From: Rhynochetos jubatus
Lineage: Eukaryota; Chordata; Aves; Eurypygiformes; Rhynochetidae
Direction of reading: 5' to 3'
NCBI GenBank assembly: GCA_027574665.1
Contig: CM050659.1
Location: 23,909,001-23,973,000, forward strand
DNA: 64,000 nucleotides
Part shown: one piece after another, positions 897-64,000 of the stretch
How positions within the stretch are numbered: the first letter of the stretch is position 1
Layout: every line of letters begins with the position of its first letter
Notes under the pieces: model-generated
The model's input: only the letters and a program-made list of their open reading frames with translations
Told to the model about the DNA's origin: nothing
Database searches by the model: none
Program-made: the position numbers and the translations under genes

Positions 897-1329
897 CTGT
901 AGAAGTGGATTGCACTGTTTTCCTCATCCATTCGTAAGAGCTGTGCCTTTGGCTGTTGGGAGAGATGTGCTGTGCATTAATTGTTTCTGCGGGAGGTAAC
1001 CCCCCAGATCCAGCGGCATGGAGGGAGCTGTAATCAGCAGAACTGTAGGAGACCTGTCCAGGGGACGAGCCACTGATCTGTGCAGCAGCCACCGTGCTGG
1101 AAGGTCCTGGGCCGTAAGCGTTCCAGTCCTCCCTCTGTGGGCCATAGTGAGATCCCCAGGTTCCCGCGGGCTGTCCATGGCTGTCCAGAGTTGGCACATG
1201 ATGATATCCCATGTAATCGGAATAGGGTGGAGTAGACACAAAGTTTTGCACCGGCAAGTTGTTGCTGCTGCACCTTGCAGATCCTGGATACATGCTGGTT
1301 TCTTTATCCAAAAGATAACTCACATACAT
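897..1329 (-). CDS. CDX4: CDX4 exon 1: N-terminal activation region of caudal-type homeobox 4 (partial gene)
   Basis: First coding exon of the ParaHox transcription factor CDX4, a nuclear DNA-binding protein. The family activates posterior Hox genes, controls axial elongation and contributes to blood specification. The exon encodes 144 codons plus one base. Residues 1-16 carry the conserved CDX start (MYVSYLLDKETSMYPG). The middle is rich in Ser, Pro, Gly and Tyr, as expected of the caudal activation domain. The hexapeptide YEWMRK, a PBX-contact type motif, is at about residues 132-137, and the exon ends in STSTG, just before the homeodomain linker. The donor is ACAG|GTACGAG in phase 1, which fits the known CDX join into GKTRTKEKY. 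The frame is open a little further upstream only through a GTG codon, so the ATG at 1329 is the start. The homeodomain is off the left edge. CDX1 and CDX2 are less likely from the N-terminal wording. Confidence 0.96.
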
Positions 1330-1446: not shown

Positions 1447-1486
1447 GACTCATGCTAGCCCTGATGTCCCTTTACTACACATGATT

Positions 1487-1494
1487 AACAATGG
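1487..1494 (+). promoter_or_regulatory. SOX-type site upstream of CDX4
   Basis: AACAATGG on the plus strand (CCATTGTT on minus) is a full match to the SOX HMG-box consensus. It lies about 160 bp upstream of the CDX4 ATG. A match of this length is expected by chance every few tens of kb, so position is the main argument. Confidence 0.35.
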
Positions 1495-1570
1495 TTTTAC
1501 CAGGTGCTGGTGGTAACAGTTTACTAAGGTCCTGCCTGATGTCACAGATAACTGCCTGCCCCAAAATTGC

Positions 1571-1578
1571 ATTTGCAT
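1571..1578 (+). promoter_or_regulatory. POU octamer upstream of CDX4
   Basis: ATTTGCAT is a perfect octamer for POU factors such as OCT4/POUV. It sits about 240 bp upstream of the CDX4 ATG, inside a run of related half-sites (ATTGCATTTGCATTC). CDX genes act in early mesoderm and neuromesodermal progenitors, where POU and SOX factors are expressed, so a role is plausible but unproven. Confidence 0.4.
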
Positions 1579-4500
1579 TCAAATGAAGGGCTGACCATGC
1601 AGGCAACCCCACCTTGCTGCTAGTTCTAGTGCTTCCTTTCTCACAGCCCCTTTATGTATTACCATCCTGGTTCTATACTTTCTGAATGTAGTTTGAAATC
1701 TCGTGGTCTTCAAGCAGTCGCATACATGGTTAACCAGTAACTGTTCACACAGCAGCAGTAGTATTTCACTTGATCAATACACGTCAGAATCTAACTTCAG
1801 GCACTAGGTTATAGTTAAATCTTGGTATCTGCTAGTCTGGTTGTTCTTTTCTTAGAATGTGCTATACTATTTTTTTAAAACTGCAAACAAAGGACCAGTT
1901 CAGTCTTTAACTGCAGCTCTTAGATAGTTTCTCACATGAGCACTCTTCTTGACTTCAGCTCTTACTCCATGTGGGAGAGCACTTAGAAACCACAGTAATC
2001 CTACTGATTTTAACATTACAAAGGGTATACAAGAAGTCTCATAGTCATTTTGAGCATTTGTTCATACGAATAGTCTTGTTGATGTTAGCAAGCCTATTCA
2101 TGAGCTGGCTGCTTGCCACAGTGATTGAAGTTTCTCTATTCTAACTTACAATGTTAACAGAAAGAGAATCTCTTACTGAGAGAATGCAAAATTTGTCACT
2201 TTCCCTATGCTTACGTCTGGTTTGTGATATTGAAATGAGGCGTAGTTTTCCCTAAAGGTTTTTCTGTTCTCATTGCTGTGCTTGTTCACAATAAGTAACA
2301 CCTTTTCTTAGAAATATGGGAACAACAACTAGGTTTTTAGCTCAAAAAAAGCAGTTTCAGGAAAAATCCTATGTTTGTAAGTAACAAATTCCTATGGGAT
2401 TATCTATAAGCAGGAGCGAGGAGAGAAAGGGGTGATTTCTTTTATTTGTAATGAGATAGGTACCTTAGCATTGTCTCTTAATGAGAATTTACTCTGTTTT
2501 CATTCCTGTTCCTTTAATGATGTGATACTTAATTGCACCTTTATTAATGAACTAACTTGTTAAAAGGATTTTTTTCTTAAACAGGTGCAAAGTATAATGA
2601 GTTTTTTCTTTGTTCAGAGGTGCATTTTTTCTTTGAGGGTCTTTTACACTTAAACACCATTAAACTTACAGGTTCCTCCTGGTTCTCAGAAGGAAGGAAT
2701 AGTTTTGCACACCTGACAACACCGTTGTTTCCTTTAGCAGGAGAATGGTGACCTTAGGCTCTGTTGACTAGATGGTTTGTAGCTGTGCAAAAACCTTTTC
2801 CGAGTGCTAATTTCCAGGCTATGAGAAACACAGGATGCCTTCTCTGGGTATTTAAGATTTTCCTGCTGTGCACTTTGGTAAAACTTGCACTCTTTCACAT
2901 CTTGTTTCTTGGGAGTTTTTGGAGGATGATGTTTTGCTGGCATTATTGTTGAAAGGTATTTTAAAAATCATCAGGTAGAGGGAGGCTGGCAGAAACTTTC
3001 GACTGCTCGCATATGTGATCTTATTCAGTTGCAATTTACACATCTGTGACAGCCGGCGTTCAGAATGACCCTAGAGCTGCTGGTACAGGCTCCTCAAATC
3101 CAGGGCAGTCAGTACTCAGTACATCATGTATCTGAACAGCTTCGTTCTCCTATATCAGCAAAATAAATCCTATTCGTCTAATGGAGAATTGGGTGTCTCC
3201 CCAGGTGGTATCTAATTACCAACGCAATGGGATTTAAATGTAGCATGATCTATATCCACCTCTTTGTTACTGGAGTGTTTCACTGCCTTTCTCAGTCACC
3301 TGGAGCAGTGTGGTTGCTCGGTAACTCCCAAGTTCAGGCTGTACTCGAAAAAGTTTCAAAGAATGATTCTTCACAGCCTTTTTGTGGTAACTTGATTTCT
3401 ATTTCCTTTCCTCCAAAATGGTTGAAGGTTTGTCCTTTAAACATTCTGTACCTCTCGTTAAGGCAGGTGTGCCAATAAATCAGCCAGAGGAAGAAGCAGC
3501 ATTTGCTCATTTACAGTAGCATTAGTTGTAGCCCTCCGGCAGTCTGGAAGATGTTCTAATTATGCTCATTCGACAAACCTTTTCCTGCGGGCCTTAGCTA
3601 CCCAGCACACCAGCACACAGAACGCTGCAGAGGGGCTGGCTCTCCTGGCACAGTTTGGATCTTGACCTGCCCTTCTTCAGCGTTGTGGGGTGTTGGATAC
3701 ACCACGCTACAGTCCTACATTCGTTCTTTAGCCTCGTGCAACACTGTCACATGAGAAACAGTTTGATTATTTTTTTTATAATGGTATAATTTGGTTCATG
3801 AAGCTACTGAAAGTAGTAAAATAGTGTTTTGTCAGGTTTATGAAAACAAAATTAGTAATCATGACATAAAAATACCTTTTTGATGCTTTCAAGTAGTATG
3901 TGTCCATACTGACATGGATGGAGACAGTTTTTCTTGTTCCATACTGCTCAAAGAAAGTACTTTACACTATGTGACTGTTAAACTGACAATACTTTACTCC
4001 CCTGGCCTCATGCTGTGGGCACTAAGCAGGAAACCGCCTCCTTGGATTCCCAAGTACCCTAAGCTGGTCTGATTTCAGCAAGCTGTATTCTGTTTTCAGT
4101 TAGTCCAAGGTTTTTATAGTTGGTATCACTTGAATCTGACCTATTAGTTGAACCACAGTCTCTAGACTTAGGGTTGGTTTTTTTATGGGGGGTATGTGAA
4201 TAATCACATGCTGATACAGTTTGTTTGAACTGAAATATTTTCATAGGTTCTCAAACACAAAGTGTAAAGGGATTTGGATTTGCGTCGCTTTTCATGCTTT
4301 CTAGCAAGAATATGTGTTAGTAACAGGTGTCGTCTTGGGGAGATCATTCTGTCTGTATAGCCACTCCTTTATAAATGCGACATTCTTCAGGCAAAGCTGC
4401 TTCTGGGAAAAAAATCCAGTAGTTTCTCCAGCCAGTTGTTACATCTGTGAAGTGGCTGTACACAGTACTGTATGCACTGTGCTTGGAGCTACTTATTTTG

Positions 4501-57492: not shown

Positions 57493-57703
57493 TTACACTG
57501 GAGGGGCTGAGTAGTGAATGACGGAGTTGTAATCTGGAGGTGGGCTGTGGCATTCCAGGTTTGGATCCATAGGAAGGAGAACAGAGTCTTCCAGTGTGAA
57601 GTCCATGGTGTCCTCATCTACCTGTACTGACGGCTGGTATTTGACAGCCTCGCGCTCGTGATCAGATAATATGGACTCCTTGCTCTTGGTGACTGCTCTC
57701 CGC
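57493..57703 (-). CDS. KDRL: KDRL (VEGFR4) last coding exon: C-terminal cytoplasmic tail
   Basis: Final coding exon of a VEGF-receptor tyrosine kinase, a plasma-membrane receptor acting in endothelium; this part is the intracellular tail after the kinase domain. It starts after a strong acceptor (TTTGTTCTCAACAG|G, phase 2) and encodes 69 full codons plus TAA at 57493-57495. Near its start [12 protein letters not shown] parallels FLT1 VTSKSKESGLSD, and the C-terminus [17 protein letters not shown] parallels the FLT1 ending ([16 protein letters not shown] from memory). The two tail tyrosines are conserved in place and are candidate autophosphorylation/SH2 sites, by analogy with FLT1. The middle is acidic ([12 protein letters not shown]). 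Neighbouring CDX4 favours KDRL over FLT1, which sits beside CDX2/FLT3. KDR and FLT4 tails differ more. The kinase domain is off the right edge. Confidence 0.88.
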
Positions 57704-59459
57704 CTGTTGAGAACAAACAGCACAATTTGTTGACCCTGTCTCCATGTGTAATTAATGGTAAAACTATTAAATTAAAATCTATATAAAGCATTTTAATTTA
57801 CCATTGCAGCATCCTGTAAGACAGCGACGTTTTACAGTTTGGAAGGGAATGGAATTAGGTATTTCAAATAACTTGGTGTTTTGAAAGTAGATTCAGGACT
57901 GAATCCAGCAGTCCTGTTGGCCTGTCTTTTTAGCTTACCACATTTCAGTGCACTCTATGTATCTTAGTTATGAATGCACCTGTCCTCTGCATACAGTAAT
58001 ATCCTCTCTCATTGTTCTGACACAGGTCAGTAAAAATTTGACTTTTCTGAAAGCAGAGCTGAAGGCTATGACTTTTCTTTAAGTATAATAAAGGATGATA
58101 TAATGAATAATCTATGACAGACTCTAATTTAAAATGATACTGAAAGCAAGAGTGCGTGTTGAACACACTACTGCAGTGTAGGGCAAAATCTCTCTTCTGT
58201 TCTCTAGCCCTTTAAAATTACTGAGCAGCACGCTAGCGAAGGGCAGCGCTTTTCAACATGACAACTGCTGGCCTGTACCTGATGCTATGAAAGAGAGCCA
58301 ACTTTCATTTTCTGCTGTCTTCCCCTATTAGCTGTGATGAAGGCGGTGGGAGAGAATCAACTTACGTCACATGGAGCAACCTGAATGTTAAAAGTAGGAG
58401 AACCCTGGAGAGGATTTGTATCACAAGGTGACCTTGAGGAACAGCATGTGTTGTGGAGATAAAAAAAGGTACTTTCTGTCTACACTACCTTAAAAATAAT
58501 GTTTTGTTAAGCCTGGTTTCTTCCATCTGAAGAATTAATTGGAAGAGGTCCGGATAACTTAGGGTTGGTTCTCCAAAGGATCCCAATGTGAGAATGGCTT
58601 TTGAACTTCTCCGCTGTGCTTAGGGACCCTTTAACACGCATCCCGTGGGAATAAGCCTCTCAGACTGATTATGGCATTGCGCATGTCTCAATTCAGAACG
58701 GCTTACGCATGAGTCTGGGAGAAGTTAAAATCAGGCCGTGCTCAAGCACTTTGTGTGTATAGTTCATGTGTATCTAAAGGAGCATAAAGCTACATTCTAA
58801 TGACCCTAAATCAAAAGTGAATAGTCAACAGTTCATCAAATGTTTGTATAATTCATGACGCTGATTTTCTCTGTGCTGCTGCAGTGCTTCCAGTCCCCAG
58901 CAGTTGATCAGGGATTCAGCGTGGTGCTTAGGGAGAAAGCAATGTTCCTGCTCTAGGAAACAAAACAATAGCTAAGGACAGATACAGTAATTGGAGGAAG
59001 AGGAACAAAAATCATGAATAGGAGAAGCATCAGATCCAAGACACCAACTGTGTGCTGTCATGTTTTTGTGATGGTACAGCAGAGAGCGCCGCTGCAGGCT
59101 GAAGAGCAGGCTGATGCTTGGCTTGACACAGCTGTACTATAGAGCAGGCCCAGCTCCTTTCAGCTGTGAAAGGGTAAATATGTCCTGCTAGGTTATGCTA
59201 CTGTGACTTTAGAAGTGGTGGTAACTTGCCTCTGAATCTGGAATCTGACAAAAGCTCCAGTTTTCCCCCAAAGCTGCAGATATGCTCAGTCTGGCTGACA
59301 GAACGAGTGTCAGTATCTTCACTTACAGTTTTTGCTAATTCTGAAAAGGTCATGAGTGTGCATGGCTAGTGCAGCCCATCGGCTAGAGCAGAACACTGGT
59401 TTATGATCTGTGCACAACCACACTGAACAGCCTGCAGGGTCCATCTGTAAATTACATAC
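57704..59459 (-). other. KDRL: KDRL last intron
   Basis: The intron lies between the predicted penultimate exon (donor GTATGT at 59459) and the last coding exon (acceptor AACAG at 57704). It holds a CTCF-like site at 59076 and otherwise no recognised feature. Confidence 0.55.
59076..59090 (+). promoter_or_regulatory. CTCF-like site in KDRL last intron
   Basis: ACAGCAGAGAGCGCC matches 13 of 15 positions of the CTCF core consensus, failing at position 1 and at one G of the GG pair. Plus orientation, as at 8100 and 37951. Confidence 0.35.
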
Positions 59460-59570
59460 CCCTTGGGGGAGTATATGGAGTAGGTGAGACTCCGCATATC
59501 GCAGTCCATGAAGCCAGTCATTCTAAGCCACGAGCTGGTATATTCAGCCAAATTCAGATGTAACAAACAG
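59460..59570 (-). CDS. KDRL: KDRL predicted penultimate coding exon (tail)
   Basis: A 111-base exon predicted from splice signals, phase and weak similarity. The donor CCCAAGGG|GTATGT is strong and leaves phase 2, exactly what the last exon needs. The acceptor is less certain: GTTGCAG|C at 59571 is used here, but CCAG|C and TTAG|A sites further in keep the same phase and would shorten the exon. The 36 full codons end in TYSIYSPKG. SSWLRMTGF and the following Asp/Arg-Ser stretch sit where FLT1 has SPMLKRFTWTD, immediately before the KSKES block. If correct, the join reads [14 protein letters not shown]. Membership could fail if the frame is open by chance. Confidence 0.55.
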
Positions 59571-59639
59571 CTGCAACTCTAATCAGCTGCAGTGGGAGGT
59601 TGGCTGCTTTGTCATTGGCCTGATTTTAGTGTCCTGTGG

Positions 59640-59750
59640 TGGCTTTCCACAGCGCGTTTGCACCTCCAGCTTTGTCTCCAGGAAGTGAACCCAGGAGCCC
59701 TGAGCTGTAAGAGCCAGCCCACCATGCCTGCACAGCTAGAATAAACGTGG
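59640..59750 (-). repeat. possible tRNA-derived SINE relic
   Basis: The minus strand contains CCTGGGTTCACTTCCTGGAG, close to a tRNA B box (GGTTCRANNCC) and its MIR-type surroundings, preceded by a GGCATGGTGGGCTGGCTC block. No clear tail; low confidence. Confidence 0.25.
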
Positions 59751-62394
59751 GTCCTGTGACTGCTAAAATGCAAAGGCAGGGATTACAGACGAAAGCCAAC
59801 ATTACCATGCTTTTAGAGCTGCACAAGGCACTGAAACCGGTCGAGTGGCAAAGCAGAAATTCTAAAATAAATAGTAACCCTGAGAACATCAACAAAAATG
59901 TAGCACACTCTGCTTTCACAATCTCAGTTTTTGCTCTTTGTCCAGAGAAAAACGTGAGTGGAAACTTCTGCATAGTGCACATTTGGCAGCTGTCCCTGTC
60001 TATACGTACACACTTGCTCTGTAGATAAATTCTTCCCTGGCATGAGCAATGGGAGCACAACTTTGCTTCTCTGTTTATTTATGAATTTTTCTTTCTGTTG
60101 CTCGGTTCTATTGACTCGTGTCAGACAATTCCATGGATGCCAGGTATTAAAGTTGTCAGTGGAGACAGAGAGAAGCTTGAAAGTATCTGTTTAACTTGGC
60201 CCCTAGCCTGCATATCTCAGAGTGCTGGAGAAAAATAAATGGTATTAGGGTTTAGTCTGGCCACAGAATGGGAAATTTTGAGACCCATGTAGACTCCCAG
60301 CAAGCGTTCTTGTTAGGTTTCTAACCCTGTAGGTCCAGAGACTGGATATCTGGGAATGACTCTGCCTATCACTGACATCATGCTGGTGTTTGCAGAAGGA
60401 CTCAAATACTGGCATCTAATATTTGCTCCAGAGACAGAAAGCTGATGAGTTAGGGCAGAAGCAAGTTTGTCATTAGCTGTCTTATGGCAGACTAAACTGT
60501 AATTAACTGTCAAAACTATTCCTTTCATCTAAATGCATTTCCCAAATTAAAGCTATCCAAGGGTCTTTGCATTTTTCCCTTTAATGCTCCAGACACTCCA
60601 GTCTGCTCTTTTCATGGCGGCACCGGGGAAACGTACATATGCTTGGACCGTATATTGAAAAACGAGTCTGCAGCCTCCCTTTTCTCTCTGTCCTTGAAAT
60701 CTCAGCTGCCACACTGCATCAGGTAATCAGTCCATCTGTATCTTGCCTCCGCCGTGGTCAGTACTTGATGCCTCCGAGGAGAGCAAAAACCCCTCTATGC
60801 TCCCTTTATGCCAGTTGTACTCCCCAGTATAAGTCAGAAAAATTCTCCCTGAGCCCCACTGATGAAACTTTTTCTGACTAAAGGCATTAGATTTGATTAA
60901 TCAGACAATTATGAAGCTACAGAAGTTAAGAATGGTTATGTAATTAAATAATTTCATGAAAACCTAGCCATTACTTGGTTCAGTGCTCCTCCTGGGTTGG
61001 CACTGCCAGTACCCAAAAGGTATTTCCTTAGTGACTTTGCCTCTGCCTGACTTCGGCGTGCTGCAGCTGCAGAGAGATGTTCAGTTTCGATAAATCTGCT
61101 CATAACTGTGAGCGCCTCAGCCCAGTCCCACGTGACTGTCGGGATTCTCACCGCGGCGCAATACTGAGGATTAGGCATGTGAATACCGTGACGTTCAACT
61201 GAAACATGTTTGCTCGCTGACCCACGCTGGTCACGTTTCACACAATGACCACCTGAAAACTCGTCTGTCCTTGCAAAGCTGTGTGCCGTTTGAGGCAGGA
61301 TAAGGGGAAGGATGGGAATCTGAGCGCTGCCGTTTCCTGACCTCAAGCAGGTTTTGTACCTAAAGGACCCGCGTTCACAACGTGCCTGTGTCTGTGGGGT
61401 GCTGGCTGGGGAAACGTTTCGCACAGTGTGGTGAGCTGGCTTCAGCCTTTGTCCGTAGGCAGAGCTGAGACTAGAGTTAGCCGAGGCACAGCACTGGCCT
61501 CCTCTCTTTCAGGAGGACACCTCCAAGCTAGGAGGTTTGTGGGGGGAGCACAGAAGTGAGAAAGCACTGAAGGAAACAATGCTAGGAGATTAGAAGAATG
61601 CAAATATTTGCTGTGCTATGTCAGATTTCGGGGTACAGGTGAAGCTGAAAAGTCTAGGATTTCAGCTCGATGAAGGAAAATGTAGCCTGAATAGTAATAA
61701 TTTTTCACAATCTTTTTTAAGTTTCCTGAAGAGGTGTCAAAGTTGTTTAGAAGATTCCACAGAGGAAAAATCCTGTAATAACTAGGAGGCCTAAGTGACC
61801 TGATGAGGCTTTTTCATCCTACTGTATGAACCAGAGATTTGGGTTAGAGGTAGAAAAATAGTGAAATTGTCAAAGAGCTGGGAAATCATTACTGAGCTGT
61901 TTATTTTACATGAGAAGGAGCCAGTTTCTATCAGCCTAAGTCTCAGGGTCAATGACTTGAAGAGGAGCATGAAGAAAGAGAGGTGACGGTAAGAAAATCA
62001 CCCTATCAGCGAGGGACGGCAGTACCAGGTGTAGCACTTACTCCCAGCGCTGTGGGCAGCTCTTAGTGCTTTGCAATAAGGTGCCCAAGTACCTTGCCCT
62101 CAGCAGGGAAAACTAATAGGCTATTGTGTCCGTGTAGAAATTCCGGCCTTGTGCAGAAGCTGTGTTTAGGGAAAGATGAGAAATTGGGCTGAGCATTGCC
62201 AAGTGGAGCAGTTTGTCTCATGACCACATCTCATAATAACATGTGGGAGCTTCAGGGCTTTATAACAGCTTTCATAGGTGTTTAATGAGGCACAGAGAGA
62301 TTAATTTTGTTTAATTTTTCTGCAATGAAAGAAATAAAAGGGTTATTTTTTCTTCTAATAGCTATGACTGATTCACAGTTTGTGTTAATATGTT

Positions 62395-62470
62395 TTAGAT
62401 GGGGTGCTGCGCACTAGGAAAACAGGCCTGGGTTCGCCTCCGGCAGTATCAGTGTGTCAGTAGTCTGCCG
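62395..62470 (+). repeat. possible MIR/tRNA-derived SINE relic
   Basis: GCCTGGGTTCGCCTCCGGC has a near-complete tRNA B box (GGTTCGNNTCC) within a MIR-like context and is followed by a GTGTGTCAGTAG stretch. The rest is too diverged to confirm a family. Confidence 0.3.
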
Positions 62471-63533
62471 AGAACTCAAGGGGATCAAGAATTTATTGTT
62501 TTGAAGCACTTCTAAATGCAAAGGACAGCTAGAATACAGTTTTAACAGCCCAAAGTAACCCGCTCACAAGTACACATCGCCGTGCACGTATGGCGAAGCT
62601 GGTCAGCTGTCCCTGACACTAGCTCCAGCACTCCACATGCAGTGAGGTGAAAAGCGCTGCAGCCAACACCAGGCTGGGGACCACAGCCTGTCACAATTCT
62701 TTTAGTCCTTGCCACTGTACGCAGATAGTATAATCCTAGAAAGAAAGGTGGCTTACATAACTCCTGAGTAGCTACTCAAAGTTACTTGTATTTTGGAGAG
62801 CTTAAGTCAGGTCATAGTGCAAGGTGCAAGTACATTTGCTATCTCAGCGTGCTTGTCACAGAATAAACTTCTGAAACTAAGCTCTGCTACGGAGCACACC
62901 TCATTTCCATGCCTCATTTTTCTGAGATGGTGCGAACGGATTCTAACCCGATCAGCTGGGCTGCACTTCTGTTGGGTGCCTTGCATTTGGACATGATGCT
63001 TGATGCTGCCGAGTAAAATCAGTCTGTTGCAGTATTGTTGACTTGCCGTAGGCCCAGCTTGGCTTTGGCAAAGGCAGAGCCCTCGGTGATGGGATCTGGC
63101 TGGAGCATCCAGGGCCCAGGGCGTATCAGCTGAGCCTCAGTCAGCTGGTGTCATGGGACCTGGCCAGGACCAGAGAAGTAATTTCAGAGCAACTGAGGAT
63201 AATTGGGCTGGGGGGGTGGAAGAGAAAGGCACGGAGGGAGGACAACTGAGCAGATACCAAACCTATTAGAATTTTAAACAGTAACTTGATTATAGAGTCT
63301 CTGGGAGAATTTTCAAGCAGTGCTTGGCAGTAGCCTGTTAATATTATAAAGAAAGCTGACACCAGAGTCATCGCAGCATTAAACCCCTCTACGCTGGATG
63401 TGCTTCCTTGCATGCCGACTCCAGTGTCATTGTCCTGGTCTATGTTCCTGTCTCTCACTGCAGCTGCTGTTGTGACTTTATACTTGGGCTGTATGACATG
63501 CTTAGAGCTCAGAAATGGTTAGTCCAGTCTAAC

Positions 63534-63621
63534 AGTGGTCCCAGGCCCAGAGTATCAGATTCATCTTCAATGAACTCTTGACACTGACACTCCATGGTGT
63601 CTAGTGTTGCCAAATTTTGAA
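63534..63621 (-). CDS. KDRL: KDRL predicted antepenultimate coding exon (post-kinase tail)
   Basis: An 88-base exon predicted by phase and similarity: two bases, 28 codons, two bases. It starts after TTCTTTTCTCTGTCGAG (good pyrimidine tract, unusual GAG acceptor) and ends at CCACT|GTTAGA (weak donor), so both splice sites are non-ideal. The encoded QNLATLDTME...FIEDESDTLGLGP aligns without gaps over most of its length with the KDR tail segment [25 protein letters not shown] and with FLT1 around FDDYQGDSS. The acidic Glu/Asp-Ser-Asp block falls in the same place. It leaves phase 2, matching the exon at 59460. A read-through would hit TGA 10 codons after the last full codon, so splicing is required. 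Earlier exons, including the kinase domain, lie beyond 64000. Confidence 0.5.
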
Positions 63622-64000
63622 CTCGACAGAGAAAAGAATGCGAGATAAATAAACAGCAAGATTTTGGCAAAAATAATAGATGCAGCCACCCTGGCTTAGA
63701 AAACATGCTAAGCCTTTGAACAGTTTTGTTTTAGAAAAGAAAGACTATTTGAAAAGGATCCAGGGTAAATGTTTTTGATAGAGAGATACACAATTAACAA
63801 GGGTGGCTTTATCTCCCCTGTTAAACCAGCACTCTGTTTTATATGCTCTTGGGGCTTGTTTTTCAAGTTAGCCACGCAGGAGCGCCAAGGGGTGTCACGT
63901 CCTCAAATGGGAGGACATCAGGATGCTCTGCGACTATGTAAAAGATGTTATTTGTGCCAACGATAGTCTGCAAGGTTAACAAAAAAAGAAGCAGACAAAA
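63622..64000 (-). other. KDRL: KDRL upstream intron (partial, runs off right edge)
   Basis: No exon of the kinase domain is recognisable here. A strong-looking acceptor (TTTTGTTAACCTTGCAG at about 63970-63986) opens a 34-codon frame, but no donor in the required phase 1 follows and the residues do not resemble a VEGF receptor. Confidence 0.5.

Follow-up and report, generated by a model that had tools for sequence, protein, structure and literature searches.

Organization of the locus

The window, that is, the whole stretch of 64,000 nucleotides analysed here, corresponds to positions 23909001-23973000 of contig C14 (CM050659.1) in the Rhynochetos jubatus assembly GCA_027574665.1, a genome of 1.33 Gb in 148 contigs. 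Near its right end lies a minus-strand coding exon that is very probably the 3' end of KDRL (kdr-like, 'VEGFR4'), the fourth vertebrate VEGF receptor, a gene that continues on the same strand and contig past the right window edge. At the left lies a CDX4 locus made up of two intact genes in tandem and in direct orientation, copies A and B, and the order along the minus strand is KDRL, CDX4A, CDX4B and CHIC1. Besides 80 kb around KDR on contig C4, the DNA compared took in flanks of 120 kb on the right side of the window and 40 kb on its left side. Exon coordinates beyond the window are given in window numbering, negative values lying to the left of the window start. From the 5' end onwards, the parts assigned to KDRL are as follows (Ig, immunoglobulin-like domain; k, thousands).

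151.8k (early coding exon) and 147.8k, minus strand: Ig1 exons, by KDR-frame match
134.0k and 129.7k, minus strand: Ig2 exons, by KDR-frame match
127.8k and 126.2k, minus strand: Ig3 exons, by KDR-frame match
In frame 125322-125777, minus strand: first half of Ig4, by frame reading, with a putative Ig4 junction
123.5k, minus strand: second half of Ig4, by KDR-frame match
112.0k, minus strand: first half of Ig5, by frame reading
99.9k, minus strand: second half of Ig5, by KDR-frame match
93.3k, minus strand: Ig6, by frame reading
90.9k and 89.1k, minus strand: Ig7 exons, by KDR-frame match
88.9k, minus strand: transmembrane exon, by KDR-frame match
87.6k to 71.9k, minus strand: kinase exons, by KDR-frame match
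70.2k, minus strand: tail exon with DGKDYIPLNITLG, by frame reading
~69.9k and ~66.6k, minus strand: further tail exons, by KDR-frame match
57704..64000, minus strand: probably last-intron sequence, with no additional coding exon placed in it
57493..57703, minus strand: last coding exon with the stop codon, by open frame, acceptor, peptide and a collinear weak KDR match

The last exon and its receptor gene

The minus-strand TAA of the last exon occupies 57493-57495, and the frame is uninterrupted back to the acceptor TGTTCTCAACAG at 57703, the peptide beginning after one split codon. The CDX4 ATG lies at 1329, likewise on the minus strand, and ~56.2 kb separates it from the KDRL stop, in agreement with an earlier note on this DNA that had placed the exon on the strand of CDX4 and about 56 kb upstream of it. 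The same note had suggested that the remainder of the receptor be sought to the right, and a gene of at least 94 kb with kinase and seven-Ig exons, collinear with KDR, is indeed found there. Between 151778 and 66515, 23 exons match translated frames of the KDR region in the same order and on one strand, a count from which repeats, matches in another frame and short matches out of order were excluded. Splice phases of neighbouring exons agree in 15/15 pairs with both sites resolved, donors are GT at 20/20 places, and acceptors are AG at 15/19, the other four being placeholder coordinates; the sites were picked for GT/AG with the KDR alignment in view and are not an independent test.

The next coding exon after the last one is at ~66.5 kb (expectation value, E, 3.7e-4). 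Within 57704-64000 no second coding exon was assigned, as KDR frames gave short weak matches only, the best of those in 57704-63621 having E 0.004 in the first search and E 0.002 or weaker in a loose search. A second coding exon in 57704-63621 was rejected for want of a convincing KDR-frame match, and this segment looks like intron, which could nevertheless hide a diverged tail exon.

When the KDRL tail peptide was compared loosely with the 80-kb KDR region, the top match (E 0.008, 32% identity over 40 columns) fell at ~70232320-70232201 of C4, on the KDR strand and 3' of the preceding matched exon. This is the expected place of the KDR last exon, and it directly follows the KDR match to the 66.5k exon. 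Because 23 further exons are collinear with KDR on one strand and the tail has its own match, the last exon is more than a chance frame; judging from strand, order, acceptor and the weak KDR match, it is tied to the receptor. The KSKES block and the PPPDYNSV ending had been regarded in the earlier note as FLT1-like. A counterpart of KSKES is present in KDR as well, and the block is therefore not FLT1-specific, while the ending appears to resemble the FLT1 C-terminus. The exon with DGKDYIPLNITLG (DYIPLN) presumably holds a docking site of the PLC-gamma type.

Domain composition and family

The joined region from Ig7 to the kinase matches Pfam PF07714 at 1.1e-94, and a single VEGFR-type transmembrane segment is recognised by PF17988 (VEGFR-2_TMD) at 3.8e-18. 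Exons for Ig1 to Ig7 were placed by collinearity with KDR together with PDB and Pfam matches; the joined extracellular exons contain six stretches each of Ig_3 and I-set, and are matched by the VEGFR-specific families PF22854, PF21339 and PF22971 (N-terminal/first, second and fifth Ig-like domains). The tyrosine kinase is split, the alignment with the VEGFR2 kinase including part of the kinase insert, and its motifs GHGAFG, VAVKML, HRDLAARN, DFG and APE are intact as read by eye. With seven Ig domains, a transmembrane segment and a split kinase, the predicted KDRL product belongs to the VEGF receptor family (class V receptor tyrosine kinases). The best-scoring solved structures for the kinase were VEGFR2 (644 bits), VEGFR1 (601) and KIT (398), and the joined extracellular exons scored 299 bits with VEGFR1 and 238 with VEGFR2. 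The FLT1 likeness of KDRL is accordingly real in the extracellular part as scored here, the kinase being nearer to KDR.

Orthology and the four ParaHox neighbourhoods

A genome search with two kinase exons as query, in which 150 of 234 candidates were scored, returned four VEGFR loci whose catalytic-loop exon is at least 91% identical (98, 91, 91 and 95%); among the matches listed, all others to this exon stood at 74% or lower. The four loci, named by signature and neighbourhood, are these.

C14: KDRL
C4:70.24 Mb: KDR
C2:112.79 Mb: FLT1 (KNPDYV)
C17:18.10 Mb: FLT4

A corresponding search for the CDX homeobox returned four CDX-type homeobox exons at 85-98% identity, followed by matches at 63-66%, among the 150 of 156 candidates that were scored. 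The ParaHox genes, named by position, lie as follows.

C4:69.96 Mb: GSX2
C2:112.95-113.02 Mb: CDX2, PDX1 and GSX1
C17:17.90 Mb: CDX1
C14:23.88 and 23.90 Mb: two CDX4 homeoboxes

One VEGF receptor is thus found in each ParaHox neighbourhood, 4/4 (FLT1, KDR, FLT4 and KDRL), KDRL being the one in the CDX4-CHIC1 neighbourhood (CHIC1 being a putative name). In addition, class III-type kinase exons lie near the VEGFR loci on C4, C2 and C17. The clean pattern of one VEGFR per ParaHox neighbourhood fits an origin of the family in genome duplication. All four neighbourhoods are recognisable in this assembly, at C2:112.79-113.02, C4:69.96-70.24, C17:17.90-18.10 and C14:23.88-24.06 Mb.

A kinase tree was built from six sequences over 212 columns, the two FLT1-type rows and FLT4 being partial. 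Two bird-human pairs form, FLT1 with VEGFR1 (98/94) and KDR with VEGFR2 (87/90), and KDRL stands outside both. The kinase does not group with FLT1; such a grouping would have spoken against the earlier assignment. The single partial FLT4 row is weakly nearest to the FLT1 pair, not to KDRL (69/75). In pairwise comparison, kinase identity is 94% between bird FLT1 and human VEGFR1 (144 columns) and 83% between KDRL and bird FLT1 (143 columns); bird KDR and human VEGFR2 share 93% and KDRL and bird KDR 83% (210 columns each). KDRL and bird FLT4 share 85% over 177 columns, human VEGFR3 not being among the rows, and the separation of KDRL from FLT4 is less firmly settled. As the identities of KDRL are lower than those of the bird-human pairs, KDRL parted from FLT1 and KDR before the split of birds and mammals.

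Interpretation of the receptor and alternative explanations

The exon at 57493..57703 is best regarded as the 3' end of KDRL, the fourth vertebrate VEGF receptor, free of signs of decay in the parts found, and a probability of about 0.95 can be attached to this reading of the sequence. A number of observations weigh against it. In the tree, KDRL is weakly nearest to KDR (69/75), and one of the three inner branches, that of the FLT1 pair, reaches the support mark of the tool; since the tree holds no kdrl from a named species and no human VEGFR3, orthology rests on exclusion and position. Moreover, for five of the 23 exons the KDR match is weak (E 8e-4 to 0.005), and several acceptors could not be resolved. 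No convincing candidate for the signal-peptide exon was found, nor were one Ig5 exon and perhaps some tail exons, and the last exon gave 0 matches among KDR frames at E <= 0.01 and 0 families in the Pfam search.

An additional FLT1 or KDR copy arisen within birds, in place of an old fourth class, would be in keeping with an extracellular part that scores highest with VEGFR1 and a kinase that scores highest with VEGFR2. Such a copy is very improbable, however, given bird-human identities of 93-94% versus 83% for KDRL with FLT1 or KDR, which date the split before the parting of birds and mammals, and given that KDRL stands alone in its own ParaHox neighbourhood; it was rejected on the six-sequence tree. 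The gaps in the exon set (exon 1, one Ig5 exon, perhaps some of the tail) could be taken as a sign of an isolated relic in the tail exon, or of a receptor decayed to a pseudogene, but the missing exons belong to poorly conserved parts amid introns of up to > 10 kb, and the 23 KDR-matched exons, like those recognised by eye, keep an open frame from one splice site to the next. With GT donors and AG acceptors at the sites chosen for them, and with the kinase motifs unbroken, decay is hardly credible, and an isolated relic was rejected on the collinear exons and the tail match in KDR.

As an intact KDRL, the product would be a membrane receptor that uses Ig2 and Ig3 to form dimers on a VEGF-type ligand, autophosphorylates its activation loop, and may signal in endothelium through the PLC-gamma-type docking tyrosine of DYIPLN. 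The gene stems from the early vertebrate genome duplications, and placental mammals lost it, as has been published (PMC2367445).

Comparison with known VEGF receptors

Neither KDRL as a gene class nor its conserved synteny is new. The kdr-like class was named by Bussmann et al. 2008, who reported it from teleosts, Xenopus, chicken, platypus and opossum, in conserved synteny (PMC2367445). Its loss in placental mammals, which the earlier note had cited as established, is given in the same paper, where zebrafish kdr-like is described as endothelial and as bound and activated by VEGF (PMC2367445). The published kdr-like (kdrl, formerly flk1/kdra) belongs to the fourth VEGFR class and, as here, lies in a block of conserved synteny; no structural difference was found. 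CDX4 is not mentioned in the text of that paper (PMC2367445), and the CDX4 neighbourhood described here comes from the sequence.

Among the other receptors, FLT1 (VEGFR1) has the most similar extracellular part and probably a similar C-terminal ending; it differs in having KNPDYV in the activation loop, where KDRL has KDPDYV, and it is itself located on C2, in a different ParaHox neighbourhood. KDR (VEGFR2) has the most similar kinase and exons collinear with those of KDRL, and is a separate gene on C4 beside KIT, PDGFRA and GSX2.

The tandem CDX4 pair

The features to the left of KDRL are listed below.

1484..1658, minus strand: element upstream of CDX4 copy A, a possible promoter or enhancer, with 78% identity over 175 bp to the corresponding place of copy B
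897..1329 (exon 1), -8968..-9113 (exon 2) and -12799..-13053 (exon 3), minus strand: CDX4 copy A (277 amino acids), open frames
925..1256, minus strand: putative gene-conversion tract of 332 bp identical to copy B (-21903..-21572), with 0/76.0 synonymous sites differing
-21502..-21931, -26890..-27035 and -28182..-28388, minus strand: exons of CDX4 copy B (260 amino acids), open frames
-37637..-37807, minus strand: CHIC1-like first exon MSVLLPNMADFDTIYELEEEE, beyond copy B

Each CDX4 copy has three coding exons with GT/AG splice sites, a caudal activation region and a caudal homeodomain, the Pfam scores being 1.3e-55 (Caudal_act) and 1.4e-20 (Homeodomain) for copy A and 3.6e-52 and 3.1e-22 for copy B. 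The motif YEWM, which we take to be a hexapeptide-like W motif, is present in both. The exon MSVLLPNMADFDTIYELEEEE is presumed to be exon 1 of CHIC1, and a Pfam search with it gave no match. The earlier note had proposed that an ancestral CDX4-KDRL pair is preserved here; the adjacency holds, while the single CDX4 gives way to two CDX4 genes. That the two copies belong to a single gene, or arise from a duplicated haplotype, was rejected, as the introns align in short blocks and exons 2 and 3 have diverged.

Over exons 2 and 3, the copies show 38.6 synonymous differences at 74.2 sites, a synonymous divergence (dS) of ~0.89, with exon 2 at 0.47 (11/31.5 sites differ) and exon 3 at 1.49 (27.6/42.7). 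Exon 1 behaves otherwise within the 332-bp tract, which is unchanged at all of its synonymous sites, versus 4/13.0 differing before it and 6/7.3 after it in the same exon. The chance of such a tract is 7e-13 or less at the outside rates tried (~7e-13 at the pre-tract rate), sites being taken as independent. In a blastn comparison of the two loci, six short blocks were recovered, exons included. The best reading of these patterns is an old tandem duplication, after which exon 1, and perhaps an element in intron 1 too, probably underwent gene conversion. This element contains a 116-bp identical run in a ~220-bp near-identical block, at -4464..-4579 in copy A and -25121..-25236 in copy B, and is a candidate enhancer that may have been kept alike by gene conversion or by selection.

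The identity over 332 bp could also have come from extreme purifying selection or from an assembly error; regulatory elements can be highly conserved, and the intron-1 element with its identical run is likewise common to both copies. Neither cause is likely, however. The change from 0/76.0 synonymous sites within the tract to many on either side argues for conversion, and introns alignable only in short blocks argue against a doubled haplotype. Furthermore, human CDX4 exon 1 appears to encode a quite different protein sequence, which would speak against ultraconservation.

The tandem and partly homogenised CDX4 pair is real in this assembly; it is perhaps annotated in chicken, and no description of it was met in the literature searched. 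A wider proposal, to which we give roughly even odds, is that two intact CDX4 genes lie in tandem between KDRL and CHIC1 in birds, in this lineage at the least and probably in chicken. Their duplication would be old and would have given a fourth Cdx gene; the homeobox and C-terminal exons of the pair would diverge freely, while most of the activation-domain exon and one element of intron 1 would be kept alike by gene conversion.

CDX4 in the literature and significance

Patterning of the posterior body is governed by Cdx genes. A second CDX4 in a bird would alter the reading of chick CDX4 experiments. If true, the proposal would add a ParaHox expansion that is without description in the searched literature, its concerted evolution being limited to a single functional module. 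The pair would also allow the action of gene conversion on one module of a developmental regulator to be tested. For these reasons the tandem CDX4 pair matters more than KDRL, which is a known gene.

Jawed vertebrates, chicken included, typically have three Cdx genes, according to one account (PMC4522105). The Cdx4-Chic1-Lnx3 linkage became the X-inactivation centre (Elisaphenko et al. 2008, PMC2430539); the CDX4-CHIC1 linkage is common to that group and to the locus described here, where CDX4 is instead a direct tandem pair, and the available portions of that paper mention no second chicken Cdx4. No described tandem duplication of CDX4 in birds was recognised in the literature searched, which took in few subscription journals. 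A 2026 selection scan in chicken has an asterisked entry, "CDX1/CDX4B", at chr4:12.06-12.12 Mb, unannotated genes in that scan having been named by BLAST against bird proteins (PMC13064311). This label suggests that bird records so named exist and that chicken may carry a second CDX4 copy, which would fit the large synonymous divergence found here without proving it. In zebrafish, Cdx4 is counted as one (PMC2543028), and an assembly of chromosome 14 is described as carrying Cdx4, Chic1 and Lnx twice, with an inverted duplication at one of the two sites (PMC2430539).

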